A stretch of 64,000 nt of DNA from an uncultured Isosphaeraceae bacterium (lineage in GTDB: Bacteria; Planctomycetota; Planctomycetia; Isosphaerales; Isosphaeraceae): positions 1 through 64,000 of the forward strand of contig CAMFLR010000012.1 in assembly GCA_945957605.1 (NCBI GenBank), read 5' to 3'. Of this stretch, positions 27,019-54,429 are shown in pieces. The position numbers and the translations under genes were made by a program. How positions within the stretch are numbered: the first letter of the stretch is position 1; every line of letters begins with the position of its first letter. The notes beneath the pieces are model-generated. The model was given only the letters and a program-made list of their open reading frames with translations, searched no databases and was not told the DNA's origin.

Positions 27019-28752
27019 TTACTTGCTGTACAAACGCGAAACAAAGCTCGCGAGCGCTCTGAGCCAGACGCCAACGGCAACAGCACCAGGATCGGGATTT
27101 CCGAGAGCGCGTTCACCGAGATAGCTTGATCGTCCGCGCCTGGGGATGAGGTCGGAAGTCGCTTCAGCACCCTGTTCGGCGGCGGTGGCCGCTTCGTTGA
27201 GCGCGGCCGCGAGAGGTCTGTTCTGGCGAACGGCTGCCGAGAAGGCGTCGGACGCAGGGACGAGGGCATCGAGCATCGTGCGCTCGCCAACGCTCGCACC
27301 GCCGATCTGGCCAATGTGCGCGATGCCCTTCGCAAACGCATCGGCCCATCCCGCGAGATTTGCGCCGGCCGAGCCGCTCGTTTTGAGCGAGTCGCCCGCA
27401 GCCAGGAAGAGCATGGCGTATAGCGGTCCCGACGTGCCGCCGAGCGCCCTTTGCAGTGTCACGCCGATGTCACGCAGAGTGGTGGCGGGATCGTCGAGCG
27501 GATAGCCCGGAATGTCCGCTACCACCGCATTCGCCCCGCGCGCCAGGCTGATGCCGAGATCGCCGTCGCCGACAACCTGGTCGAGTTCGGTGAGGCGTTC
27601 GGTCGCCGCGATGAGTGCTGATGCAACGGCGCGAATCGCCTCGCCCGTTGCGCGGCCGAGCGCGGTTGTGGGAGCAAGCGGGGGAGGGGGAATCACGGGA
27701 TTCGCCGAGGCGTTGGGCCACAATGTCGGCTGGTTATCGCGCGGGTGATTCGCGGCGTTGGGCCAGGCGGGGGCGGTGGTCGCTTCGTCGAGATGGTCGA
27801 GCCGTTCGTTGTTCACGCTCATCACTGACAGCGAAATACCCGCCATCTCGAGCGCGGAGAGGAACGTGCCGATGTAAACGCGCTCGACGTTCATGTCGCG
27901 CGCTTCGAGAAACGCGATCGCCTCGCGCGCGGCAATTGCCAGCTCCATCGTCGGCGTCGCGCCGAGGTTGTTCACGAGCAATACGACACGGCAACCGGAG
28001 GGAGGTTGCAACCGCACGAGAATGGCTTTGAGGAGCGTATCGACAAGCGTATCGGCGGGGGCGATTTTCGCCTTGCGCACGCCTGGCTCGCCATGAATGC
28101 CGAGGCCAAGCTCGACCTCGTCTTCCGCCAGACTAAAGCCCGGCTTGCCCGCGGCGGGGACGGTGCAGGGGGAGAGAGCAACGCCCATTGTGGCGACCGA
28201 GTCGGCCGCGGCCTGCGCTTCGGCCGCGACTTCCGCGAGACTTCGGCCCGCTTCGGCTGCTGCGCCCGCGACCTTGTGCACCAAAATCGTGCCGGCGAGC
28301 CCACGTGCTCCGGCGAGGCTTGTGGAACCGACGAGTGCGGCATCGTCAGCGACGATCACCATCTCGACCGGAATCCCTTTCGCTTTCGCCAGCTCGGCAG
28401 CAAGGCCGAAGTTCAAGCGATCGCCGGTGTAATTCTTGACGATCAAAAGAGCACCGGCGGGTCCCGAAACGGCTTCGATGGCGGCGAGCACCGCGTCGGG
28501 ACTGGGTGATGTGAAGACATCACCGGCAACGGCGGCTGAGAGCATTCCGTGTCCGACGTATCCCGCGTGCGCCGGCTCGTGACCGCTGCCGCCGCCCGAA
28601 ATGACCGCGACCTTTCGAGATGCAACCGGCGGCGTATCGGCCCGGACGATCACCGTGTGCCCCGCCAGTCGCTTCAGGCCAGGATAGGCGGACGCCAGGC
28701 CCTGGACCATCTCTTCGACAACCGCATCGGGCCGGTTGATCAGCTTTTTCAT
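27019..28752 (-). CDS. Dihydroxyacetone kinase, DhaK-DhaL fused
   Basis: This 577-residue, ATP-type single-chain dihydroxyacetone kinase phosphorylates dihydroxyacetone in glycerol or triose metabolism. The DhaK part (about residues 1-335) has GGGSGHEPAHAGYVGHGML (residues 53-71) and GIHGEPG (about 215-221), which includes the histidine that forms the covalent substrate adduct. The DhaL part (about 360-577) has GDGDLGISLARGANAV with the Mg-binding acidic residues. The start at 28752 (MKKLINRPD) has GAGG nine bases upstream; an in-frame ATG at 28767 lacks one. It is convergent with 25807-26772. Confidence 0.9.
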   Translation of the reverse strand: MKKLINRPDAVVEEMVQGLASAYPGLKRLAGHTVIVRADTPPVASRKVAVISGGGSGHEPAHAGYVGHGMLSAAVAGDVFTSPSPDAVLAAIEAVSGPAGALLIVKNYTGDRLNFGLAAELAKAKGIPVEMVIVADDAALVGSTSLAGARGLAGTILVHKVAGAAAEAGRSLAEVAAEAQAAADSVATMGVALSPCTVPAAGKPGFSLAEDEVELGLGIHGEPGVRKAKIAPADTLVDTLLKAILVRLQPPSGCRVVLLVNNLGATPTMELAIAAREAIAFLEARDMNVERVYIGTFLSALEMAGISLSVMSVNNERLDHLDEATTAPAWPNAANHPRDNQPTLWPNASANPVIPPPPLAPTTALGRATGEAIRAVASALIAATERLTELDQVVGDGDLGISLARGANAVVADIPGYPLDDPATTLRDIGVTLQRALGGTSGPLYAMLFLAAGDSLKTSGSAGANLAGWADAFAKGIAHIGQIGGASVGERTMLDALVPASDAFSAAVRQNRPLAAALNEAATAAEQGAEATSDLIPRRGRSSYLGERALGNPDPGAVAVGVWLRALASFVSRLYSK

Positions 28753-28854
28753 CGAGCCAAACCTCATCGCGTGATTCTTACACGTTCGCGATGATCAGTC
28801 TGGGTTTTACCCGCCTCGTCCGCAAGAGGCCAGTCTCATATTCAACGATGAAAC

Positions 28855-30009
28855 TTAGTGAATAACAACAAAAGATCCGTCCTTGCGAGCGACGGCCGCA
28901 GGCAAACTCCAGACAGGAATCGCACGATCGACGCGGCCCTTCGCGACAGTCGGCTTACCGGCAGCGTCGTAAACCTGCCAGGCGAGCGCCCCGCCCCGCT
29001 GCCAGCCGGTCCCCTCGGCCCAGGCGAGGAGCGTGAGTCCGCTGGGAGTCGCCGCGAGGGAAGGATGCTTGCGCTCGACACCACGTCCGGCCGCGGCAGC
29101 AGGCTTTTCGCCCCTGGTTGGATGCGAGAAGTAAATCTGTCCGGCGGTTTCCCAGGCGGCGAGCAAGCCGGCAGGACTTTCGACGAGCGACATGCTGCTC
29201 ATCGGGCAGGCGTTGATCTTCCAGGGATGCACGTCGGCGCCGCGGAACGATGCTCCGCTATTGCTGCTCGAAACCAGAACCAGGTCGCGCTCGGTGCCGT
29301 TGTTTCGCGCCGAGCGGTAAATGATGTGAAGCGTTCCTTGAGGATCCACCAGCGCCTTTGTGCCGCAGCAAGCGCAGGCACCCGTCGGTTCGTCGTAGGC
29401 CGCTTTCTCGGGGGCGAAGGTGGCGCCGTCGTCATTCGAAATCGCGAGCCACAATTTGCGGTAAGCTTCGCCCGGCGGTGAGCCGGCTCCCCGGCCATGC
29501 CAGGCGGCGAAGACGTTTCCTTTTGCGTCGGCTGCGATGGTGCCGCCGCCGTCGAGTGCTTCGCTCGTGTTCATCAAATTGCGCTGGGGATCAAACGCCG
29601 TCGCACCGGGCTTCAAACGCGAGTAGAAGAGTTGCGAAGGGTTGCTCTGCGAAACGAACGGGCCATTCCAGACGATGTGCACGAAACCATCGCGACCAAG
29701 CGCAAGCTGGCCGCCTCGAATCGAGCCGATCGCAACCGCTGTGGCCGGTGTGCTGTTGACCCGCAATGGGGCGCTGAAATCATCTTTGCCTGCGGATTGC
29801 TTGACGTAGAAAAGATCGCCGTGCCCTGGGTCGCCTTTGAAGTAAATCAGGTGCAGCGTGCCAGTCTGATCAACAACCGCCTGCGGTTGAATGCCGCCGT
29901 TGGGTGTGGAAATCACATCAACGCGCGGAACAGAGGGCTCATCGGCGCGCGAAGTGAGCGCTGCGACGAGAACGATTCCGGAAAGGACGACTCGTCGAAC
30001 AGCGCTCAT
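28855..30009 (-). CDS. Exported BNR/sialidase-fold protein
   Basis: This 384-residue protein has a signal peptide (about residues 1-23, SRA) and beta-propeller-type repeats: LHLIYFKGDPGHGDLFYVKQS, VHIVWNGPF, SNDDGATFAPEK, LHIIYRSARNNGTERDLVLVSSSNSGASFRG. These Asp-box-like motifs mark the BNR/exo-sialidase fold. Catalytic arginine triads of true sialidases are not evident, so enzymatic activity is uncertain. Cysteines cluster at GACACCGTK. The start at 30009 is preferred over the longer frame (to 30159), which lies in the NapHG gene. It is the last gene of a four-gene operon (29-bp gap). Confidence 0.75.
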   Translation of the reverse strand: MSAVRRVVLSGIVLVAALTSRADEPSVPRVDVISTPNGGIQPQAVVDQTGTLHLIYFKGDPGHGDLFYVKQSAGKDDFSAPLRVNSTPATAVAIGSIRGGQLALGRDGFVHIVWNGPFVSQSNPSQLFYSRLKPGATAFDPQRNLMNTSEALDGGGTIAADAKGNVFAAWHGRGAGSPPGEAYRKLWLAISNDDGATFAPEKAAYDEPTGACACCGTKALVDPQGTLHIIYRSARNNGTERDLVLVSSSNSGASFRGADVHPWKINACPMSSMSLVESPAGLLAAWETAGQIYFSHPTRGEKPAAAAGRGVERKHPSLAATPSGLTLLAWAEGTGWQRGGALAWQVYDAAGKPTVAKGRVDRAIPVWSLPAAVARKDGSFVVIH

Positions 30010-30038
30010 GTTCGGCTCTCTCGAATTGTTGGTGGCGA

Positions 30039-31823
30039 TCAGACCGAAACGAGGTCCTGCGCGTTTTCCTCGACCAACCCCAGCAAGAGCGAGCGATTCT
30101 TGTCGCGCGACTCGCCGATTGCGGTCACGTAAACGGCCGGGTCGTCTTTCACCGGGCATTCATGTTCACAAATGCCGCAGCCGATGCATTTGACCGGGTC
30201 GATGAACGGCCGCTTGAGCTGCAGGGTCGCACCCCAGCGGTCGGTCACCTCGACGTTGCGGGTGAAGATCGCCTTCGGGCTGACCGGGCAAACTTCTTCG
30301 CAAACCACGCACGACGTATCCATCGCCCACGGCAAGCAACGTCCCTGGTTGTAGAACGCGGTGCCGGTCTTGACCGGTCCCTTGCTCTCGAACGGGCCGA
30401 CGCCGAGCTTCTCGGCGATCGAGATTTCGCGGATCGCACCGGTCGGGCAAACCTGCGAGCAGAGCGTGCAGTTCAGCTCGCACCAGCCCATCTTCGAGAT
30501 CATGATGGGCGTCCAGAGCCCTTCAAGACCTGCTTCGAACAAGGCCGGCTGGAGCACGTTGGTCGGGCAGACGCGGATGCACTGGTCGCACTTGATGCAG
30601 CGGCGGAGGAATTCGTCTTCCGCCACCGATCCCGGCGGACGAATCACCGCGCGATTGAAGTTCTTCTTCACCGCGCCCGAAAGGCGGGTCATCGGGAAGA
30701 ACATCAGGCCGAAAATGCCTGCCAGCATGAGCTGACGGCGACCGATTTCGGGATAGGTGATTTCGCTCGCCTTGCGGGGCAGGAAGCGGAACGTGAGAGC
30801 GTCGTGCGGGCACTCTTCGATGCAGTTCAAGCAAACGAAGCATTCACTCTTGCGCAGATCTTTATGCGGGTCGGACGCCCCTTCGCAGCTCTTCAAGCAA
30901 AGGTCGCAATCGGTGCAGCGCACCGGGTCGCGGTCGATTCGCCAGAGCGCGAACCGGCTGAAGACGCCGAGCAAGGCACCGAGCGGACAGATCGCCCGGC
31001 AGAAGAAGCGCGGGATGAACCAGTTGGCGACGAGGAAGCCGATGAAAATCAGGCCTACGACCCACGCCTGCCAGTATTCACGCGGCTCGGTGTAAATTCC
31101 TTCCGACGCCATGTGCACAGTGGGCAGAACGCTCGTCGTCATCGATCGCACAGTCAGCGCGATCGGGTCTAGCAGGCCGATTTGCAGTGTGCTCTTCTTC
31201 GCCTTGTGTTCCTCGGCCGCTGCGCCAATCCCCTGGCCAATCGCACCAAAAACGCGGTCGGGACCGCTGCGTTCGAGCAGCGTGAAGCCTTGGGGAATGG
31301 GGGTCGACGGGGCAACCTTCCACGGTTCCCGTTTGCCGTTGGCATCGACGATCCAGCGCGAGCCGTCGACAACCTTGGGCATCTGTCCGTTATATGCCGA
31401 TATGATCTTGCCTGGTGAATCCCAGGCGGTGGGAATCATCCAGAGCGCGGCCATCGCCAGCATGGCGGCGAGGATGTAATACTTGATCGCGTAGATCTTT
31501 TTATATCGGTTGATTTCGATGAGCTGCTTCGTGTTGCGGCGATTGCCGATCCAGCCGAAGAAGTGGTGCAGGATGCCGAACGGGCACATCCAGTTACACC
31601 AGACGCGCCCGAGCATCATCGTGATGGCGATGATTACGAGGCCCCACACGAGATTGCGATAGATCGTGTGCGTGGTGAGCGCGGTGGAAACGGCGACGAG
31701 CGGGGTCGCTTCGAGGAAAATCGACACAGGCCACCCTTTGAGGTAGCGCAGGTCGGTAATCACAAGGAAAAACAGAAAGAGCCCGAGGAATAGAACCTCG
31801 TAAGCTCGGCGAATCTTGACCAT
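30039..31823 (-). CDS. NapH-NapG-like fused polyferredoxin
   Basis: This 594-residue protein joins two known partners. Residues about 1-345 are NapH-like: four or five membrane spans, two CxxxCP loops (CNWMCP near 80, CRAICP near 278) and two 4Fe-4S motifs (CTDCDLCLKSC, CFVCLNCIEECP). At about 358-380 an internal twin-arginine segment (GRRQLMLAGIFGL) leads into a NapG-like part (about 380-590) with RPPGSVAEDEF..CIKCDQCIRVCP and further CxxCxxC...C motifs (CELNCTLCSQVCP, CVVCEEVCP, CIGCGICEHECP). In Nap systems NapH and NapG pass electrons from quinol to a periplasmic acceptor; the fusion would place both halves in one membrane complex. No napA, napB or napC is present here. It lies between DUF362 and BNR genes, 96 and 29 bp apart. 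Confidence 0.85.
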   Translation of the reverse strand: MVKIRRAYEVLFLGLFLFFLVITDLRYLKGWPVSIFLEATPLVAVSTALTTHTIYRNLVWGLVIIAITMMLGRVWCNWMCPFGILHHFFGWIGNRRNTKQLIEINRYKKIYAIKYYILAAMLAMAALWMIPTAWDSPGKIISAYNGQMPKVVDGSRWIVDANGKREPWKVAPSTPIPQGFTLLERSGPDRVFGAIGQGIGAAAEEHKAKKSTLQIGLLDPIALTVRSMTTSVLPTVHMASEGIYTEPREYWQAWVVGLIFIGFLVANWFIPRFFCRAICPLGALLGVFSRFALWRIDRDPVRCTDCDLCLKSCEGASDPHKDLRKSECFVCLNCIEECPHDALTFRFLPRKASEITYPEIGRRQLMLAGIFGLMFFPMTRLSGAVKKNFNRAVIRPPGSVAEDEFLRRCIKCDQCIRVCPTNVLQPALFEAGLEGLWTPIMISKMGWCELNCTLCSQVCPTGAIREISIAEKLGVGPFESKGPVKTGTAFYNQGRCLPWAMDTSCVVCEEVCPVSPKAIFTRNVEVTDRWGATLQLKRPFIDPVKCIGCGICEHECPVKDDPAVYVTAIGESRDKNRSLLLGLVEENAQDLVSV

Positions 31824-31919
31824 CGGTCCTGGTCCTCGTTATGAGGTCGGGTTGCGATTCAAGCCGGGAAGGACCTCACTGGCCCACGGATTTCCGCTGC
31901 AAAAAGAGGCGAACAAGGC

Positions 31920-33020
31920 TTATGCCAGGTTGACTTCTTTGGTCCACTGGGGACGCCAGTCGTTACCCAGGCCGCGCTGGATGATCTTGTCGAGATAGAT
32001 GATCTCGTGCCGCTGCTTGTCGAGCAAGCGGGTGACGCACCAGCTATCGACGGCCGTGCCCTCAGTGCCGACGACGATCGTGTCGGACTGCTTCACGTCG
32101 TTCAGGCTACCGCCGGTTGGTCCGTTACGCATCAGGAGCTTGCGGCCGTCGGCGATGACGAGCGTCGGCTTGATCATCAACGCGAAGTCGGAAATGATGC
32201 CGTGGATATTTTGATGGAACTGGTTGCGGGGGTTGCCCAGCAGGCCGTACCAGTTCTTCATCGTGACCGTGGCCTTGCACAGGTTGTGGTCTTTGACGGG
32301 TGAGATGCCGATGACCTTCGTCGCCTCGCGGAAGGGGCGATAGAACATCCGCCAGGTGCCGGTGATCGTTTCGCCGCCGACATACAGCTGCTCGAAGTAG
32401 CTGTCTTGCGGCATCATCAGCTCGGCGCCGGCTTTGAGCGCTGCGTCGCCGACTTTGGTTTTGAAGAAGCAGCTTTCGGGGTTGTTGATCGGGTTGTCGG
32501 CGACGATCACCTTGCGGGCACCGGCGTCTTTGCAGAGCTTCACCACGGCCGCGAGGGTATCGGGCTGGGTGGTGGCGGCGAGGTCGGGATTCTTGTCGAA
32601 CGCGACGTTCGGCTTGATGACGACGACGTCGCCTTTCTTGATGAATTTCTCGACGCCACCCATCTCGGTGAGCGCGGCCTTCACCATGTCGAAGGCCTGC
32701 TTTTCGCGAACTTCCATGTCGTGTTCGCGGTTGTCAGTCGACGGCTTGGGAGTCGAGCGGACGACCACGACTGACGGAGTGCTCGATGGCAGGTCCTTGA
32801 TCGCGAAGCTGGGCAGCCGCACGGGCGGCGGCGGCTTGACGCCTTCCATGCCCCACTGGTCGCGGAGCAGGAGGCCGGCACCAACGGCCGCGCCGGCCAC
32901 GGCCGCATATCCGCCAACCTGGGTGGCAAACTGGCGCCGCGAGAACATTTCATCAGCGGGGTTTACGCCGCCGAGACGTTCGAGATTTTTCTGCTGGGTA
33001 CGGGTCAGCTTTTCGCTCAT
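31920..33020 (-). CDS. Tat-exported DUF362-family protein
   Basis: This 366-residue protein carries a twin-arginine signal (SRRQFATQVGGYAAVAG, S27-R28-R29) and a hydrophobic stretch after it. The body (about residues 65-360) belongs to the DUF362 family (GGVEKFIKKGDVVVIKPN, TQPDTLAAVVKLCKDAGARKVIVADNP, IGISPVKDHNLCKATVTMKNWYGLLG). The family is often associated with iron-sulfur or ferredoxin proteins; its chemistry is not settled. It is exported, matching the extracytoplasmic half of the NapHG fusion downstream. Confidence 0.85.
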   Translation of the reverse strand: MSEKLTRTQQKNLERLGGVNPADEMFSRRQFATQVGGYAAVAGAAVGAGLLLRDQWGMEGVKPPPPVRLPSFAIKDLPSSTPSVVVVRSTPKPSTDNREHDMEVREKQAFDMVKAALTEMGGVEKFIKKGDVVVIKPNVAFDKNPDLAATTQPDTLAAVVKLCKDAGARKVIVADNPINNPESCFFKTKVGDAALKAGAELMMPQDSYFEQLYVGGETITGTWRMFYRPFREATKVIGISPVKDHNLCKATVTMKNWYGLLGNPRNQFHQNIHGIISDFALMIKPTLVIADGRKLLMRNGPTGGSLNDVKQSDTIVVGTEGTAVDSWCVTRLLDKQRHEIIYLDKIIQRGLGNDWRPQWTKEVNLA

Positions 33021-33093
33021 CGCGGGCCTCGCAGTCGGGACTGGTGCGGGAGCCGTCGGGCTTGGTAGGAGAAGAGTGCGAAGCGGCGCCGGA

Positions 33094-34902
33094 TCAATTC
33101 TCGGCGCCTTCCTCGGCTTTGGGTTTCTTGTCGTCGCCGGCCGGCTTTTTCAGGTCCGACTCAATCGGCGGGAGGGAGGCAGGGACAGCTTTGACGAAGC
33201 CAGTGGCGAATTTTTCGGTCGAGACGGGATCGGTCCCGCCGTTCGCTCCGCCAATCGTATTGCCGCGCCGGAAGATCGCGTCGACAAGCCCGGTGTTCGT
33301 ACCGATGACGAACTGATCGGCCCCTTCGACGGTCGGCGTCTTGATCGTTGCGCCGTCTTTTTTGGCGGTCGATACGTAGAGGTCAAAAACCGCCTTGGCC
33401 GCTTCGGGCGTCGGGTAAGGACGAACGAAGCCCTGCCAACTGACCTCAACGTCTTTCCCGTCCTTCTTCGTTACTTCCTTATAATCGGCCATGAAGACGT
33501 CGGACAGGAAGCTATATCCGAAAACGTCCTGAGCCACGTACTTCGGCGCAGAGCGACCTTGGCCGGCAGGCAGCAGGTTGAACAGCAAATCGGGTGACGA
33601 GAACGCCACCCCACCGCTCGCTTCGGCATTCGTCTTCTGCTTGGCGACGACCTTCTTCGCCAGCTCGAGCGCGAAGCTGCCGAACTTGGCGTCGTTGTTG
33701 GTCGAGACGATTTGCGTGTAATAGGGGCCCGCGTAGAAGAGGGTCGAACCGGCGGCTTCGTACCCTTCGGTTCCCACCGGAACGAGCTTCGCCCCTTCAG
33801 GCTTTTCCGAGCCGTACTTGCCAAGCGCCTTGAGCGGATTGGCCATCTCGAAGATGTAGATCTGGATCTCGTTCGAGTCGTCGCCGATCGGGTGATAATA
33901 CGTGTAGGCCATCCCCTTCACGTCGTACTGGATGAAGCTCTCAGCGCGGCCGTCGATCTTCTCGAACAGGTTCTCGGCGTTGAAGGTTTCAAGGTGCTTC
34001 GCGCCCGACTTGCCGACTTCCCAGCCGGCCGGAATATCGGCGAGCGGCAGCATGAGCGCGATCTTCTTTTGCGGCTCGGGAACCGAGGCGATTTCGCCGT
34101 CGACAACCGATTGTGGCAAGGCGCCTGGGTTGGTGGGAGCGGCGGCAGGTTGGGCGACAACGGCCGGCGCGGCGACGTTAGGCTGAGCCGGCGCGGGAAC
34201 GTTGTTCATGGCTGGCGGAATGTTGGCGGCGACGGCCGCCCCGCGGATGTCGACCGGCGGCGCGGTGAAGTCCATCAATTGCTGCGGGCCATCGACACCA
34301 ACCGACTTCCGCACGCCTGCAAGCCGTTCGAGCACTTCGGGAACTGCGGCAGCGACCGTGGCCGAGCTACCCGAAACGGAGCGAAGCTTGAGCATCGCCT
34401 CGTCGAGCTTCTTGACGTTGTTCACGAGGTCCTTGCGGATCTCGCCGAGCTCGACTTCCTTCTTCTGTACTGCGCGGTCGGCGGCTTCAAGAGTCTCAAA
34501 TCCACGGCCCTGTTCCAGGACCGACCAGGTCTTATTGGGGTCGAATTCGTAGCGGTTCCTGTCGTAATGCAGGCTCTGGTTGATGAACCCGGCGAAAATT
34601 GCCGGAATGCCCATGCAGAGACCCATACCGCAGCAAATCGACCAGAATTCGGGGCGCTGATAGGTTCGGCCGCGACGGGCTGCGAACCAGTCGAGCCGGC
34701 CGAGGACTGCGAACGCGAGCGGCGTGGTTGCCACTGCGATCAGTGCGGCGGTCAAGGCATAACCCTTCACTGGGTCGTCGGCCATTTTGGTCCAGACGGC
34801 CTTGAAGGCGAAAGGAATGCCTGCAAGTAAGATGATCGCAGCCAGCACGGCCGCGCCACGAACAGGGTCGGATCGGAGTGATTCGACGATCTTCTTGGCC
34901 AC
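33094..34902 (-). CDS. Membrane protein with large soluble domain
   Basis: This 602-residue protein uses a GTG start with GGAGG seven bases upstream. Three membrane spans cover about residues 15-35, 47-68 and 83-105. A coiled-coil segment (about 130-180) is followed by a Pro/Ala linker (about 215-260) and a large alpha/beta soluble region (270-600). No enzyme motif is recognised. It is the first gene of the probable operon with DUF362 (73-bp gap), NapHG and BNR, and may be a structural or assembly partner. Confidence 0.7.
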   Translation of the reverse strand: MAKKIVESLRSDPVRGAAVLAAIILLAGIPFAFKAVWTKMADDPVKGYALTAALIAVATTPLAFAVLGRLDWFAARRGRTYQRPEFWSICCGMGLCMGIPAIFAGFINQSLHYDRNRYEFDPNKTWSVLEQGRGFETLEAADRAVQKKEVELGEIRKDLVNNVKKLDEAMLKLRSVSGSSATVAAAVPEVLERLAGVRKSVGVDGPQQLMDFTAPPVDIRGAAVAANIPPAMNNVPAPAQPNVAAPAVVAQPAAAPTNPGALPQSVVDGEIASVPEPQKKIALMLPLADIPAGWEVGKSGAKHLETFNAENLFEKIDGRAESFIQYDVKGMAYTYYHPIGDDSNEIQIYIFEMANPLKALGKYGSEKPEGAKLVPVGTEGYEAAGSTLFYAGPYYTQIVSTNNDAKFGSFALELAKKVVAKQKTNAEASGGVAFSSPDLLFNLLPAGQGRSAPKYVAQDVFGYSFLSDVFMADYKEVTKKDGKDVEVSWQGFVRPYPTPEAAKAVFDLYVSTAKKDGATIKTPTVEGADQFVIGTNTGLVDAIFRRGNTIGGANGGTDPVSTEKFATGFVKAVPASLPPIESDLKKPAGDDKKPKAEEGAEN

Positions 34903-35202
34903 GTGTGATCCTCCCCCACGACCCGGTTGTTATCGGCACACAGGCAGCCTCGGCGGCCCGCCCGTGGCAGGTTCAACAACAATTTGACTCGACCTCGCTG
35001 ATTATAGCGGCCGTTCCACCGACCGGGCAATTGGATCGCAGGTCAGAGTGGCTCAAATTGTCCCAAAACAGACGCATCCCTTGATCAAGGTAGCGTCGAA
35101 TAGGGGATTTCCGCCCCGAGAGGCGCGCAAAAACGGCGGTACGGACGCGTTTTGGGAAGCGCCCGAACCACCGGTTCTGCATCAAGTTGGAACGTCTATC
35201 GG
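34903..35202. promoter_or_regulatory. Intergenic region upstream of the redox operon
   Basis: No gene is visible in these 300 bases. The region should contain the operon promoter; no clear operator is seen. Confidence 0.4.
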
Positions 35203-48033: not shown

Positions 48034-51000
48034 ATGGCCACGACGGATATCCGCATCCGAGGCGCGCGCGAGCATAATCTCCGCGATGTGTCGCTCGACC
48101 TGCCTCGGGGTGCCCTGATTTGTTTCACGGGCGTGTCCGGCTCGGGAAAAAGCTCGCTCGCGTTCGACACGCTGTACGCCGAAGGACAAAGACGTTACGT
48201 CGAAAGCCTGTCGAGCTATGCACGCCAGTTTCTCGGGCAAATGCCCAAGCCCGAGGTCGATAAGATCGAAGGTTTGAGCCCGTCGATCTCGATCCAGCAA
48301 AAAACCGGCGGACGCAACCCGCGCAGTACCGTCGGCACGATCACCGAGATCAACGACTACTTGCGCGTGCTATACGCGAGGGTGGGGCAGGGGCACTGTC
48401 CCCAGTGCGGCCGGCCGGTTGCCGCGCAAACGCGCGAGCAGATCGTCGCCCGCATCGCCTCGATTCCCGAAGGGACGGCGTATTCAATCCTCGCCCCCGT
48501 CATTCGCGGCCAGAAGGGGGAATACAAGGATCTCTTCGAGGAACTTTCTCGCGCCGGTTATGTTCGCGCCCGCGTGAACGGCCAGGTCGTTTCGCTGACC
48601 GACCGCCTCGCGCTCGACCGCCAGACGAAGCACTTCATCGAAGTCGTGATCGACCGCCTGAAATCAGGCCCCGCTGTGCGGCCGAGGCTCGCGGAAGCGG
48701 TCGAGCAGGCTCTCAAGCTGGGTGAAGGGGCGGTCATCATTTCGGTCGAAGGGCAGCCCGATTTGCTGCTCTCGTCCGACTACGCCTGCAGTTCCTGCGG
48801 GATTAGCTTCGAGCCGCCCAGCCCGCAGCTTTTCAGCTTCAACAACCCGCAAGGGATGTGTCTGGCGTGCGACGGCCTGGGCGTGCGCCATGTGTTTGAT
48901 CCCGACCTGCTCGTCCCCAACCCCGCGCTTTCGCTCTGGGACGGGGCGGTTGAGATCATTGGACCCGTGAAGAAGATGGGCAAGTGGCGCCGTCATATGT
49001 TCGACAGCGTCGCGCGCAACCTGGAAAGCGACCCCGGCGGTCCGGCCAAGGGAACTCTGCTCAAAGGACCGTGGAAGAATCTCAGCCAGAAGTATCGCGA
49101 CGCGTGGCTGCACGGCCTGGGCGAACGGCTGATTATTGCGCACTGGAAAGGGCGCGGTAAGGCCTGGGCGCATTCGGAAAAATGGCCGGGAATCGCTACG
49201 GACTTGATGGAGAAGTACAAAGCGGCGGCCGGCGGTCCCACGAAGACGATGCTCGAGCCGTACCTCAAGAGCATGACGTGCCCCGACTGCGGCGGCACCC
49301 GGCTCAACCCGCGCGCTCGAAGCGTGCACGTCGGCGGCAAGAGCATGGTTGAGGTTGGCACGATGCCGATCGGCGAATGCTCGGGATTTTTCGACAAGCT
49401 CGCCGATGGCACGAGCGAATTTCCGCTCGATCCCCTCTCGCGCACGATCGCCGAAGAGTTGCTCAAGGAAATTCGCGGCCGACTCGGATTCTTGACGAAC
49501 GTCGGCCTCCACTACCTCTCGCTCGACCGCTCGGCCCCTACGCTTTCCGGCGGCGAAGCCCAGCGCATCAGACTGGCGAGTCAGGTCGGCGCGGGGCTCG
49601 TCGGCGTGCTCTACATCCTTGATGAGCCGTCGATCGGCCTCCACCCGCGCGACAACGACCGGCTCATCGCCACGCTGCAAAAGCTGCGCGACGTGGGAAA
49701 CACGGTGATCGTCGTCGAGCACGACGAAGACACGATGCGCGCGGCCGATCACCTCGTCGACTTCGGTCCCGGCCCCGGCGTGAAGGGGGGCGAATTGGTG
49801 GCGATGGGAACGATCGCCGACCTCGCCAAGGCCCCCGCCAGCCTGACTGGTCAGTACCTCTCGGGCGGGAAGTCGATCGCGATTCCGACCGATCGCAAAA
49901 AGCCTGGCGACAAGTCGCTGACGATCGTTGGCGCGCGGCAGCACAACTTGAAGGGGATCGACGTTACGATCCCGCTCGGCCTGTTCGTCTGCGTGACGGG
50001 CGTGTCGGGTTCGGGCAAAAGCTCGCTCGTCAATGATATTCTGCGCGATGCCCTGGCCCGCGACCTGAATGGTGCCCTCTCGGAACCTGGGCCGCACGAA
50101 CGGATCGACGGTGTTGATGCGCTCGACAAAGTCATCGACATCGATCAATCGCCGATTGGCCGCACCCCGCGCTCGAACCCGGCAACGTATATCAAACTGT
50201 TCGACCTGATTCGCGACCTCTATACTAAACTGCCCGAAGCCAAGGCGCGGGGATATCAGCCCGGCCGGTTTAGTTTCAACGTGCCGGGCGGGCGCTGCGA
50301 GGCGTGCCAGGGGAACGGCTCGAACCGGCTCGAAATGGATTTTCTGGCCGACGTTTGGGTGACCTGCCCCGTCTGCGAAGGAAAGCGGTTCAATCGCGAA
50401 ACGCAGCACGTTCGTTTCAAAGGCAAGAGCATTGCCGACGTCCTTGAAATGGACGTGCAGGAAGCGCTCGAACACTTCGCGAACGTCCCCAAAATCGCCG
50501 GCATGCTGCAAACCCTGCACGACGTCGGCCTCGACTATTTGAAGCTCGGTCAGGCCTCGCCCACACTTTCCGGCGGCGAGGCCCAGCGCATCAAGCTGGC
50601 GCGCGAGTTGGTCAAACGCGGCACCGGCCGGACGCTCTACATCCTCGACGAGCCGACCACCGGCCTGCACTTCGACGACGTTCGCAAGCTGCTCGGCGTG
50701 CTGCATGGCTTCACCGCGCTTGGCAACACGGTGGTGGTGATCGAGCATAATCTCGACGTCGTCAAAACTGCTGACTGGGTGATCGAACTTGGTCCCGAAG
50801 GGGGCGGCGGCGGCGGTCGGATTGTCGCTGAAGGGACGCCCGAGGTTATCGCCGCGCACAAGGAAAGCGCCACGGGGGCGGCCCTGAAGCGCGTGCTCGA
50901 ACCTCGGCCGGTTGTGAAAGCATCGAAAGCAAAATCGAAGAAGCCCGCGAAGCGAAAATCGTCAGAAATCGGCCTGGAATCGATCTCGATTCGCGGCGGT

Positions 51001-54000
51001 CGGCAGCACAACTTGAAGGGCGTAGACCTCGACATTCCGCGACACAAGATGACGGTGTGCAGCGGGCCAAGCGGTTCAGGCAAAAGCTCGCTGGCGATCG
51101 ACACGCTTTATGCCGAAGGCCAGCGTCGCTATGTCGAAAGCTTGTCGAGCTACGCCCGGCAGTTCCTTGCTCCTCTGCAAAAGCCCAAGGTCGACCAGAT
51201 TTCGGGGCTCTCGCCGGCGGTTTGCATCGAACAAAAAACGACGAGCAAGAGCCCACGTTCGACCGTCGGCACCGTCACCGAAATTCACGACTACTGGCGC
51301 ATTCTGTTCGCCCGCCTGGGACAGCCGCATTGCCCCAAGTGTGGCACGGCGATCGGCACGCAATCGGCCGATGAGATCGTCGAAAAGATTCTGCATTTGC
51401 CCGAAGGGTCGAAGATCTACGTCATGGCGCCGGTCGAACGGCGCGACAACGAAGATTACGCCGCGCTCTGGGACGAGCTTCGCGCCTCGGGCTTCAATCG
51501 AGTGCGGGTCGACGGCGTTTCGACCAGCCTCGACAAACCGCCCAAGCTCAGCCATCGCCGCAAGCATCAGGTCGAAGTGGTCATCGACCGCGCGGTCGTC
51601 CGGCGCTCGACGCGCTCGCGCCTGGCCGACTCGGTCGAAGCCGGTCTCGACCTCGGCAAGGGCGTGCTGCACGTCGCGCACGTCGGCGATGAGGCCAAGG
51701 AAGCGAAGTGGGTTGTCGATCGCTACAGCCAGCATCGCTCGTGCGATACTTGCGGGCGCAGTTTTGAAGAACTCTCGCCGCACAACTTCTCGTTCAATAG
51801 CCCGCTCGGCTGGTGCCCCGGCTGTGAAGGATTGGGCACGCAACAAGGCGCCAACCCCGCGACCTTGATCCCTGACATGCGGCTGTCGATGCGCGACGGC
51901 GCGGTGGTCGTTTGGCCGGATTTCCGCGAATTCCCTGAGTTCGCTCGCACGATTGGCGCGATGTGCGAGGCGCTTGGGATCGATCTCGATACGCCGTTTG
52001 AAGAGCTCGACGCCCGCCATCGCCGGATCATCCTCCACGGCGCGGGGGAAACCTGGTTCACCGTCCCGGCGACGAAGGATCAACCAAGTTTTTCTTATCA
52101 ATATAAAGGCTTGTTCCCGGCGATCGAGGAAGCCGCGCGAGTTTCGTTCCTCTATCGTTTCAAGCTGCAAGGAATGGTCGACGACGTCCCTTGCGCCTCG
52201 TGCATGGGCGCCCGGTTGCGTGACGACGCGGCGGCCGTGAAGTTCCGCGGATTCACGCTCGACCAGATCAACGGCTGGCCGCTGGGCCGAACGCTCGAAT
52301 TTGTCACCAAGCTCGACATGACCGAAGACGAGCGGCACATCGCCGGCGACCTCATTCGTGAGATTCGCGAACGGCTGCAATTTCTCAATGATGTCGGTCT
52401 CGATTACCTCAGTCTCGGTCGCGGTACCCCCACGCTCTCGGGCGGCGAAAGCCAGCGTATTCGGCTGGCGAGCCAGATCGGCAGCGGCCTGACCGGCGTG
52501 CTTTACGTGCTCGACGAACCGACGATCGGCCTCCATCCGCGCGACAATGCCCGACTCCTCGGCGCGCTCAAGCGATTGCGCGACCTGGGCAACACGCTCG
52601 TGCTCGTCGAGCACGATCGCGAGGTGATCGAAGCGGCCGATCATCTCGTCGACTTCGGCCCCGGCTCGGGCGATCTCGGCGGGCAGATCACCGCGGCCGG
52701 AACGCCGCGCGAGGTCGAGCTGCGCGATGAATCGCTCACCGGGCGCTATCTTGCGGGGCGCGCCGCCATACCGGTTCCCACAAATCGACGCTCCATTTTG
52801 CCCAACGGCCCCGCGATCACCGTACGCAACGCCCGGCACCATAATCTCAAGAATGTCGATGTGTCGTTCCCGCTCGGCGTGGTGACGGTCGTCACCGGCG
52901 TTTCGGGATCGGGCAAGAGTTCGCTCGTCGAGGATATTCTCTGGAAGGCCGCCGCCAAGAAGCTGCACCGCGCCCAAACGACGCCAGGCGCGCACGATAG
53001 CATCGAAGGGTTTGAGCATATCGATAAGGTGATCAGCGTCGATCAGGCGCCGCTCGGCGGCACGCCGACGTCGACGCCCGTCACCTATTCCGGCGCGTAC
53101 GATCTGATTCGCGAGCTGTTCGCCAAGATGCCCGAAGCGAAGGTGCGCGGGTACTCTCCGCGCCGGTTTAGCTTCAATCAAAAGGGTGGACGATGCGAGG
53201 CGTGCGAAGGGGCCGGGCAAAAACGGATCGAAATGCACTTCTTGCCCGATGTCTGGGTCACGTGCGACGCCTGCCATGGCCAACGCTTCACGCCCGAAAC
53301 GCTCGCAGTGAAGTTCCGCGGCAAAACAATCGCCGACGTGCTTAACATGAAGGTCGACGCGGCGCTCGAACTGTTCGCGAGCGTGCCCAAGATTCGCAAG
53401 GTGATGCAAACGCTGTCCGACGTCGGCCTGGGTTACCTCCCGCTCGGTCAGTCGGCCCCGACACTTTCCGGCGGCGAAGCCCAGCGCGTGAAGCTCGCAG
53501 CCGAACTCGCTCGCCCCGACACCGGCCGCACGCTTTACGTCCTCGACGAACCAACGACCGGCTTGCACCTCGACGACACGAAAAAGCTGCTCGCCGTTGT
53601 GCATCGTCTGGCCGATTTGGGTAACACGGTCGTCATCATCGAGCACAACCTCGAAGTGATCAAAACCGCCGACTGGCTGATTGACCTCGGTCCCGAGGCG
53701 GGCGGCAAGGGAGGCGAAATCGTCGCTGAAGGGCCGCCCGAAAAAATCGCCAACGAGAAGAAGAGCCTCACGGGTCGAATCTTGAAAGAAGTGCTCGCCG
53801 CCGGCCCACGCGAGGCTCGCACGAAGTTCGATCCCAAGAAGGCCGCGGCCAAACTGCTCGAAGCGGCCAAGGCCAGCGCGCCGGTGACGATTGAAACCAA
53901 TGCGGCCAAGTCTCCCTGGGAAATCGATGGCCGCAAGTGGCATACGAAGGATCGCGTCGGAGCGCGGTCGGGTCGGACTGGGCGGTGGGATGGCCGCATT

Positions 54001-54429
54001 CTTGAAAAAGTTGTTGATGCGGTTGAAGCGACGAAGAAATTTGGCGAGACCGACTGGAGCCAGCAATTCGTCGTCAAAATCGGCGGGACGAACTCGAAGG
54101 ATCGCCCGTTCCTTCGCGCATCGACCGGTCACGAGTGGATTCTGACGCTCCGCTTCACCGTCCCGCGCAATACGTTCAAGCCAGGCTCACTCGACCGCAC
54201 GCTCGGCCTCACGCCGTTCCACCTGCTGCCAGTTCCCGTGCTGAGCGATGCCGATCGTGTGGTGGTCGTCGAAGATTCACGAGGGGGGATGCAAGAGGTT
54301 ACGATCACGTGCCACAGCTACGATGAGATGAACACTCCGGCGTTCGAAACCTTCGTGAAGAAGGCCATTGAGGCGTATCTCGGCACTCCGACGCGAGCCA
54401 AGCTGACAAAAGCCAGCGATCTCACATAG
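48034..54429 (+). CDS. uvrA: Tandem double-length UvrA excinuclease subunit
   Basis: This single frame of 2131 residues encodes two complete UvrA units. Walker A motifs (G.SGSGKSS) occur at about 33, 655, 1011 and 1622; four LSGG(E)(A/S)QR signatures and four DEP(S/T) Walker B segments follow. Each half keeps its zinc sites: CSSCG...CLACD and CEACQ...CPVCE in the first, CDTCG...CPGCE and CEACE...CDACH in the second. A Lys-rich linker (about 957-978) joins them. Usual UvrA is about 940 residues and dimerises, so this chain could act as a covalent dimer in nucleotide excision repair. A further domain of about 170 residues (1960-2131), with no UvrA motif, lies at the C-terminus. The frame is uninterrupted. 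Confidence 0.95.
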   Translation: MATTDIRIRGAREHNLRDVSLDLPRGALICFTGVSGSGKSSLAFDTLYAEGQRRYVESLSSYARQFLGQMPKPEVDKIEGLSPSISIQQKTGGRNPRSTVGTITEINDYLRVLYARVGQGHCPQCGRPVAAQTREQIVARIASIPEGTAYSILAPVIRGQKGEYKDLFEELSRAGYVRARVNGQVVSLTDRLALDRQTKHFIEVVIDRLKSGPAVRPRLAEAVEQALKLGEGAVIISVEGQPDLLLSSDYACSSCGISFEPPSPQLFSFNNPQGMCLACDGLGVRHVFDPDLLVPNPALSLWDGAVEIIGPVKKMGKWRRHMFDSVARNLESDPGGPAKGTLLKGPWKNLSQKYRDAWLHGLGERLIIAHWKGRGKAWAHSEKWPGIATDLMEKYKAAAGGPTKTMLEPYLKSMTCPDCGGTRLNPRARSVHVGGKSMVEVGTMPIGECSGFFDKLADGTSEFPLDPLSRTIAEELLKEIRGRLGFLTNVGLHYLSLDRSAPTLSGGEAQRIRLASQVGAGLVGVLYILDEPSIGLHPRDNDRLIATLQKLRDVGNTVIVVEHDEDTMRAADHLVDFGPGPGVKGGELVAMGTIADLAKAPASLTGQYLSGGKSIAIPTDRKKPGDKSLTIVGARQHNLKGIDVTIPLGLFVCVTGVSGSGKSSLVNDILRDALARDLNGALSEPGPHERIDGVDALDKVIDIDQSPIGRTPRSNPATYIKLFDLIRDLYTKLPEAKARGYQPGRFSFNVPGGRCEACQGNGSNRLEMDFLADVWVTCPVCEGKRFNRETQHVRFKGKSIADVLEMDVQEALEHFANVPKIAGMLQTLHDVGLDYLKLGQASPTLSGGEAQRIKLARELVKRGTGRTLYILDEPTTGLHFDDVRKLLGVLHGFTALGNTVVVIEHNLDVVKTADWVIELGPEGGGGGGRIVAEGTPEVIAAHKESATGAALKRVLEPRPVVKASKAKSKKPAKRKSSEIGLESISIRGGRQHNLKGVDLDIPRHKMTVCSGPSGSGKSSLAIDTLYAEGQRRYVESLSSYARQFLAPLQKPKVDQISGLSPAVCIEQKTTSKSPRSTVGTVTEIHDYWRILFARLGQPHCPKCGTAIGTQSADEIVEKILHLPEGSKIYVMAPVERRDNEDYAALWDELRASGFNRVRVDGVSTSLDKPPKLSHRRKHQVEVVIDRAVVRRSTRSRLADSVEAGLDLGKGVLHVAHVGDEAKEAKWVVDRYSQHRSCDTCGRSFEELSPHNFSFNSPLGWCPGCEGLGTQQGANPATLIPDMRLSMRDGAVVVWPDFREFPEFARTIGAMCEALGIDLDTPFEELDARHRRIILHGAGETWFTVPATKDQPSFSYQYKGLFPAIEEAARVSFLYRFKLQGMVDDVPCASCMGARLRDDAAAVKFRGFTLDQINGWPLGRTLEFVTKLDMTEDERHIAGDLIREIRERLQFLNDVGLDYLSLGRGTPTLSGGESQRIRLASQIGSGLTGVLYVLDEPTIGLHPRDNARLLGALKRLRDLGNTLVLVEHDREVIEAADHLVDFGPGSGDLGGQITAAGTPREVELRDESLTGRYLAGRAAIPVPTNRRSILPNGPAITVRNARHHNLKNVDVSFPLGVVTVVTGVSGSGKSSLVEDILWKAAAKKLHRAQTTPGAHDSIEGFEHIDKVISVDQAPLGGTPTSTPVTYSGAYDLIRELFAKMPEAKVRGYSPRRFSFNQKGGRCEACEGAGQKRIEMHFLPDVWVTCDACHGQRFTPETLAVKFRGKTIADVLNMKVDAALELFASVPKIRKVMQTLSDVGLGYLPLGQSAPTLSGGEAQRVKLAAELARPDTGRTLYVLDEPTTGLHLDDTKKLLAVVHRLADLGNTVVIIEHNLEVIKTADWLIDLGPEAGGKGGEIVAEGPPEKIANEKKSLTGRILKEVLAAGPREARTKFDPKKAAAKLLEAAKASAPVTIETNAAKSPWEIDGRKWHTKDRVGARSGRTGRWDGRILEKVVDAVEATKKFGETDWSQQFVVKIGGTNSKDRPFLRASTGHEWILTLRFTVPRNTFKPGSLDRTLGLTPFHLLPVPVLSDADRVVVVEDSRGGMQEVTITCHSYDEMNTPAFETFVKKAIEAYLGTPTRAKLTKASDLT

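Follow-up and report, generated by a model that had tools for sequence, protein, structure and literature searches.

Quinol dehydrogenases of the NapGH type, as found in E. coli and Wolinella, consist of two polypeptides that feed NapA. A single-chain relative was studied by Tooke et al. in 2017 (PMC5449189): the polytopic polyferredoxin PFD (Q1NSB0) of the delta proteobacterium MLMS-1, which is a NapH-NapG fusion by the authors' own statement, is dual-targeted by Sec and Tat, and the part beyond its fifth transmembrane segment (TM5) is exported Tat-dependently with a C-terminal reporter located outside. The function of the protein was not the subject of that study, and its text does not mention DUF362. 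LarA binds the nickel-pincer nucleotide (NPN) through R75, K184 and H200 and uses H174 in catalysis (PMC7583248; for K184 and H200 also PMC12611868). DUF362 and DUF2088 are already known to share one Pfam clan, CL0471 (PMC11770544), and other DUF362 proteins bear 4Fe-4S modules in cis (PMC5742341, PMC7955657). Our literature search yielded no paper on DUF362 in connection with NapH, on any DUF362 function or on DUF6599.

Here, we analysed a stretch of 64,000 nucleotides from an uncultured Isosphaeraceae bacterium (the window), taken from contig C12 in a genome of 8.8 Mb. It harbours four minus-strand genes grouped around a NapH-NapG fusion, with the following features:

35001..35030, minus strand: promoter-like site TTGCCC-18-TATAAT upstream of gene 1 (10/12 consensus positions)
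33094..34902, minus strand: gene 1, membrane-anchored DUF6599 protein, 602 aa, GTG start (Pfam, hydropathy, AlphaFold)
33469..34002, minus strand: DUF6599 domain of gene 1, residues 301-478 (Pfam PF20244)
31920..33020, minus strand: gene 2, putatively Tat-exported DUF362 protein, 366 aa (PF04015; conservation of the twin arginine)
32934..32939, minus strand: twin-arginine pair of gene 2, R28 R29 in S-R-R-Q-F (ORF sequence, alignment)
32013..32759, minus strand: residues 88-336 of gene 2, predicted to fold like the LarA cofactor domain (AlphaFold, VIA-align)
32214..32288, minus strand: H245...K255...H269 triad of gene 2 (no exception among 83 DUF362 proteins of such operons; hhalign)
30039..31823, minus strand: gene 3, NapH-NapG fusion, polytopic polyferredoxin, 594 aa (Pfam/NCBIfam, motifs, gene neighbourhood)
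30789..31823, minus strand: NapH half of gene 3 with TM1-TM4, two CxxxCP and two cytoplasmic 4Fe-4S motifs, C303-C338 (profiles, alignment, hydropathy)
30735..30740, minus strand: internal twin-arginine pair R362 R363 before TM5 (motif, alignment column)
30669..30731, minus strand: TM5 of the fusion, residues 365-385, predicted to be Tat-dependent (hydropathy, homology with PMC5449189)
30123..30659, minus strand: NapG half with four predicted extracytoplasmic 4Fe-4S motifs, 16 cysteines, C409-C556 (NapG NCBIfam profile, cysteine list)
28855..30009, minus strand: gene 4, exported BNR-like protein, 384 aa counted from an internal ATG (weak BNR match)

A NapH-NapG fusion in a tight gene array

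The ORF coordinates agree exactly with the four-gene array described in an earlier note on this DNA: spacers of 73, 96 and 29 bp separate the genes in the order from gene 1 to gene 4, and 87 bp downstream of gene 4 comes a dihydroxyacetone kinase gene of the same orientation. A scan for promoters and terminators found no more sites than expected by chance, and the promoter-like site in front of gene 1 is included in this count.

In searches with NCBIfam profiles, the N-terminal half of gene 3 matches NapH (5e-20) and the C-terminal half NapG (7.8e-24). All of its 28 cysteines fall into cluster-type motifs, namely two CxxxCP pairs and six four-cysteine groups, two N-terminal and four C-terminal to the twin arginine. 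Hydropathy analysis yielded four transmembrane segments and a weaker fifth one straight after R362-R363; the internal motif G-R362-R363-Q-L-M-L thus sits immediately before the hydrophobic stretch (mean hydropathy 1.43), which has four Lys/Arg residues within the next 15 positions, and the twin-arginine segment that had been noted at the start of the NapG part was found directly ahead of TM5. Gene 3 hence combines the traits of dual Sec/Tat polyferredoxins: a NapH-like N-terminal half with four transmembrane segments and CxxxCP pairs, and a twin arginine right before a weakly hydrophobic TM5 that is followed by positive charges. With MLMS-1 PFD it shares the four transmembrane segments, the fifth one preceded by the twin arginine, the four outer 4Fe-4S motifs and the positive charges behind TM5, whereas the authors of that study count seven clusters, three of them cytoplasmic, and gene 3 has two clear four-cysteine motifs plus the two CxxxCP pairs in place of the latter. 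As the architecture is otherwise the same, the topology is very probably the one first read from the sequence, with the C-terminal ferredoxin half outside the membrane, by analogy with the experimentally tested homologue (PMC5449189). Most fusions carry the twin arginine at the same alignment column, including 69 of 83 with an adjacent DUF362 gene, and several of those lacking it there have RR one column off or KR instead. Between TM3 and TM4, the protein of the window has a loop with some 80 extra residues, which its aligned relatives lack.

NapH and NapG had been taken to be normally separate. This view needs amending: such fusions are widespread and already described (PMC5449189); neither the fusion nor its internal Tat signal is new. 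The same fusion is encoded in the independent Isosphaeraceae MAGs L071 and L072, which contain the closest proteins (identity up to 92%), and in many other phyla, and these loci rule out an assembly error as its source. Compared to NapGH of E. coli and Wolinella, gene 3 has the cluster motifs, the NapH transmembrane half and the Tat-directed NapG half in common, but is a single chain and has no NapA at its side. In line with the earlier reading, the window ORFs that we scanned include no NapA-type or other nap reductase gene.

Gene 1 carries a C-terminal DUF6599 domain (PF20244, 2.3e-46, 158.1 bits versus a gathering threshold of 27), predicted from hydropathy to be extracytoplasmic, behind three predicted transmembrane segments and a coiled region. 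It had been described as a membrane protein with a coiled coil, which leaves the DUF6599 domain unnamed. The AlphaFold model (mean pLDDT 74) contains an ordered domain at about residues 276-575, mostly above 85. A sequence search gave no solved homologues; in structural comparison the two halves of DUF6599 resemble lipoprotein and sensor folds (PknH sensor, TiME, TP0453) with Z of about 7-11, which we do not take as functional evidence.

Conservation of the module and its local variation

A relative (E < 1e-40) is present in 58 of 294 sampled Planctomycetota. Scanning GTDB genomes resulted in 80 named loci, which belong to Planctomycetota, Verrucomicrobiota, Gemmatimonadota, Acidobacteriota, Myxococcota, Thermodesulfobacteriota, Nitrospirota, Pseudomonadota, SAR324 and a number of candidate phyla; the 73 loci with at least 1 kb of upstream sequence were used for neighbour counts. 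The DUF362 gene adjoins the fusion in 66 of these 73 loci, 65 times upstream (within 700 bp, same strand) and once downstream, and in two of the remaining seven (L071 and L149) it lies upstream beyond the 700 bp limit. In the planctomycete branch made up of families f45 and f76 (f45/f76) the two genes are often unlinked in the genome; an orthologous DUF362 protein (60-89% identity) is kept in all 14 genomes tested with such a split arrangement. DUF6599 is encoded upstream in 29/73 loci and the gene precedes that of the DUF362 protein in many lineages. In the f45/f76 branch, the NapH-NapG protein bears DUF6599 as a C-terminal fusion, as exemplified by an 815 aa protein (L045; PF20244 1.8e-21 at residues 543-742), which places DUF6599 on the outer side together with the NapG half.

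The fourth gene is a different case. Gene 4 matches BNR models only below threshold (E 0.05), has no homologue in any other locus and none in the two Isosphaeraceae relatives L071 and L072 by tblastn. The BNR protein is thereby ruled out as a module member and is a local addition outside the conserved module. The BNR gene stands where other loci have a Tat-exported aldo/keto reductase (AKR). This reductase is the usual fourth gene elsewhere (19 loci), located directly after the fusion or directly before the DUF6599 gene. In an alignment of 17 copies, all share the Tat twin arginine, the catalytic tetrad (D98, Y103, K129 and H164) and both C331 and C338, and 16 also have C393; one of three copies scanned matches Fer4 models as well. 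The genome under study encodes several aldo/keto reductases of that type on other contigs. An AKR with conserved C-terminal cysteines in other phyla points towards hydroxy or carbonyl substrates.

Fusions outside the window's clade in our tree keep other company: some are paired with a NapA-like protein (L053, L054), others with proteins that look FMN-binding by eye (L048, L051 and others). Such pairings in other branches mark the fusion as a general conduit, and its adjacency to the DUF362 gene is by itself no proof of an electron flow to the DUF362 protein. The conduit is known already; it is its DUF362 partner that is uncharacterised, and the conserved pairing of the fusion with a DUF362 protein that is exported and has the LarA fold seems not to have been described.

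A predicted LarA-like fold in the DUF362 protein

Gene 2 is a clear DUF362 member (PF04015, 6.5e-40, 137.8 bits versus a gathering threshold of 24). Its twin arginine is invariant among 83 aligned relatives and a Tat motif occurs in 63 of the 65 DUF362 proteins encoded upstream of a fusion. Hence, both partners should be exported, as had been proposed for the DUF362 protein. Across the 83 aligned operon DUF362 proteins there is no invariant cysteine; the invariant residues include K136, N138, K243, H245, K255, N256, R265 and H269.

In the AlphaFold model of gene 2 (pLDDT 92), the fold corresponds to the cofactor domain at the N-terminus of LarA-family proteins. Twelve LarA-family entries reached Z scores of 14.4-16.2 in VIA-align, with the next, unrelated folds at 5.4, and Foldseek gave an E value of 6e-6 for the LarA fold; the match covers the N-domain only (gene 2 residues 88-336 versus LarA 33-270). 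By sequence, a search for solved homologues returned nothing meaningful and hhalign found no match to one or two LarA sequences. With a profile of 34 LarA homologues, a score of 35.2 (P 8e-4) was obtained, whereas shuffling the columns 30 times never gave more than 20.0 and reversed profiles did not exceed 16.6. H245 and K255 align with the equivalents of LarA H174 and K184 in most template leads (K255 in 9/9), while H269 falls on H200 in 3/9. K143 coincides with the R75 equivalent, a position occupied by Arg in 63 of the 83 relatives. The predicted model thus has the cofactor-domain fold, and the NPN-binding Lys and the Ni-ligand His have invariant counterparts in K255 and H269, but the DUF362 alignment holds no conserved His at the position of the catalytic H108 and the C-terminal domain with K298 is missing. 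For these two reasons we did not file gene 2 as LarA. Relative to the LarA superfamily (DUF2088/Lar_N; e.g. Isosphaera pallida LarA, 9eid), it shares fold, residue equivalents and clan, and differs in its predicted export and its pairing with an Fe-S membrane conduit. It has the DUF362 core in common with those DUF362 proteins that carry Fe-S modules in cis, but is itself predicted to be Tat-exported and free of a ferredoxin module, with the clusters residing in the partner protein. In the literature searched, we found no earlier report of this DUF362-LarA residue correspondence.

A probable extracytoplasmic redox module and competing readings

But, what could an exported LarA-like protein gain from a polyferredoxin in the membrane? 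We favour, with a probability of roughly 60%, a conserved extracytoplasmic redox module in which the fusion is a quinone-linked electron conduit and the DUF362 protein its catalytic partner. Gene 3 would act as a single-chain NapGH-type quinone/quinol-linked conduit with four helices inserted by Sec, two 4Fe-4S motifs on the cytoplasmic side, a Tat-dependent fifth helix and four 4Fe-4S motifs outside. The exported DUF362 protein would trade electrons with these outer clusters and do the chemistry; the fusion would thus supply in trans what other DUF362 proteins have in cis (PMC5742341, PMC7955657). Gene 1 would add an extracytoplasmic accessory domain that is anchored in the membrane and probably serves as a dock or scaffold. 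In other phyla the aldo/keto reductase joins the set. Gene order, conservation, motifs, the predicted fold and the invariant residues come from computational tools, and the Tat dependence of the homologous fusion from the literature; the electron exchange between both proteins, the quinone link, its direction and the substrate are what we infer. Gene order, motifs and conservation support the extracytoplasmic redox operon centred on the fusion that the earlier note suggested, and the DUF362 protein, adjoining the fusion so frequently, is its likely redox partner. Against this reading stand the lack of an invariant cysteine in the DUF362 protein, the frequent separation of both genes in the f45/f76 branch and the other partners of F-like fusions in other branches, an F-like fusion being a relative of gene 3.

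A special case of the favoured module, kept apart as it commits to a cofactor, is rather unlikely on the present evidence: the DUF362 protein might be an exported enzyme with NPN or a similar pyridinium cofactor, passing hydride to or from an extracytoplasmic hydroxy/keto substrate, with the fusion linking the cofactor to the quinone pool. A membrane-bound dehydrogenase or reductase would then have been built from a racemase fold. The fold match (Z about 16), the profile alignment well above its controls and the placement of K143 are consistent with this, although Arg is not invariant at the latter position and the H108 equivalent and the K298-bearing domain are absent. Tat export would fit an enzyme that receives its cofactor in the cytoplasm, and homologues of LarC, LarE and LarA are present in this genome. 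Of the 40 sampled Planctomycetota that have both DUF362 protein and fusion, 37 have LarC, compared to 183 among the other 254 (p = 0.005 in a Fisher test that takes no account of phylogeny or genome completeness). A strict requirement for LarC does not follow: of the three exceptions, G206 has LarE, and G175 and G182 have neither protein above the cut-off, G182 being 93% complete and encoding both DUF362 protein and fusion. In addition, 17 of 119 genomes with DUF362 lack LarC, and the H-x9-K motif also occurs in the two other clear DUF362 paralogues of this genome and is hence not module-specific. Slightly more doubtful still is the wider proposal that DUF362 proteins are redox enzymes with NPN or a related organometallic cofactor, represented here by an exported hydroxyacid/carbonyl dehydrogenase or reductase wired via NapHG to the quinone pool; if true, NPN chemistry would serve net redox rather than racemisation.

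The fusion could also serve maturation instead of turnover. The conduit would then be a generic low-potential one and the DUF362 protein a chaperone, assembly or reactivation factor, with electrons spent on maturation and not on metabolism; a possible client would be the AKR or another exported metalloenzyme. We consider this improbable, about to the same degree as the pincer enzyme. It would suit a DUF362 protein devoid of cysteine ligands, DUF6599 halves resembling lipoprotein/sensor folds (Z 8-11), which fit a scaffold role, and the lack of a metabolic neighbour universal among the loci. However, invariant Lys, His, Asn and Arg residues in a LarA-type pocket suggest catalysis, and many loci with DUF362 protein and fusion have no recognisable exported enzyme alongside. 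That the locus is a nitrate-type (nap) electron-transfer locus which lost its reductase is very improbable: among named families, gene 3 comes closest to NapH and NapG, and a NapA-like gene lies directly upstream of the related fusions in the planctomycetes L053 and L054, but these NapA-linked fusions are far from the window's clade, gene 3 is far under the curated equivalog cut-offs (NapG 84 bits versus 269, NapH/MauN 72 versus 213, NapH 68 versus 234), the conserved neighbour is the DUF362 protein and not NapA, and the molybdopterin oxidoreductase-like matches of this genome are diverged and on other contigs only.

With the redox module as the favoured reading, the widespread and uncharacterised DUF362 family gains a concrete and testable frame that combines the cofactor fold of LarA with three invariant residues (H-K-H), export by Tat and a transmembrane Fe-S protein as its dedicated partner. 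Should the protein prove to hold a pincer-type cofactor, NPN chemistry would reach beyond the hidden redox of racemases into extracytoplasmic redox linked to respiration. If NPN plays no part, the set still defines a respiratory module common to many phyla, many uncultured ones included.

DUF362 and LarA relatives in the same genome

A LarA homologue at C11:102673-103227 in the organism's own assembly (L155/L160) is matched by the Pfam model Lar_N and, weakly (2e-4), also by that for DUF362, so that at the sequence level it appears to bridge the two families. Two further DUF362 paralogues of this genome, L157 and L159, keep the K-x-H-x9-K motif, which suggests from their sequences that the motif is general in DUF362.

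Further genes of the window

27019-28767, minus strand: ATP-dependent dihydroxyacetone kinase (DhaK-DhaL)
48034-54429, plus strand: tandem-UvrA protein, 2131 aa
55908-58712, plus strand: membrane proton-translocating pyrophosphatase, 934 aa (H_PPase match, 6e-233)

The kinase gene lies 87 bp beyond the BNR gene on the same strand, and the two could be co-transcribed. In the 2131-aa protein, two UvrA units are arranged in tandem, with two UvrA interaction domains and two UvrA DNA-binding domains.

Variants and possible partners of the proposed NapH-NapG conduit

Gene 3, the NapH-NapG fusion, carries an insert of ~80 residues (about residues 131-212) in the extracytoplasmic TM3-TM4 loop, which is missing in the aligned relatives from other families. 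NapH-NapG-DUF6599 triple fusions of about 815-850 aa were found at L042, L044, L045, L056, L060, L065 and L067-L070; genes judged by eye to be rpsO-like and pnp-like lie downstream in several of these loci. Exported proteins precede each of the related fusions at L048, L051, L055, L061 and L064, and with a C-terminus resembling, by eye, the FMN_bind domain, they look like another class of partners for the same conduit.
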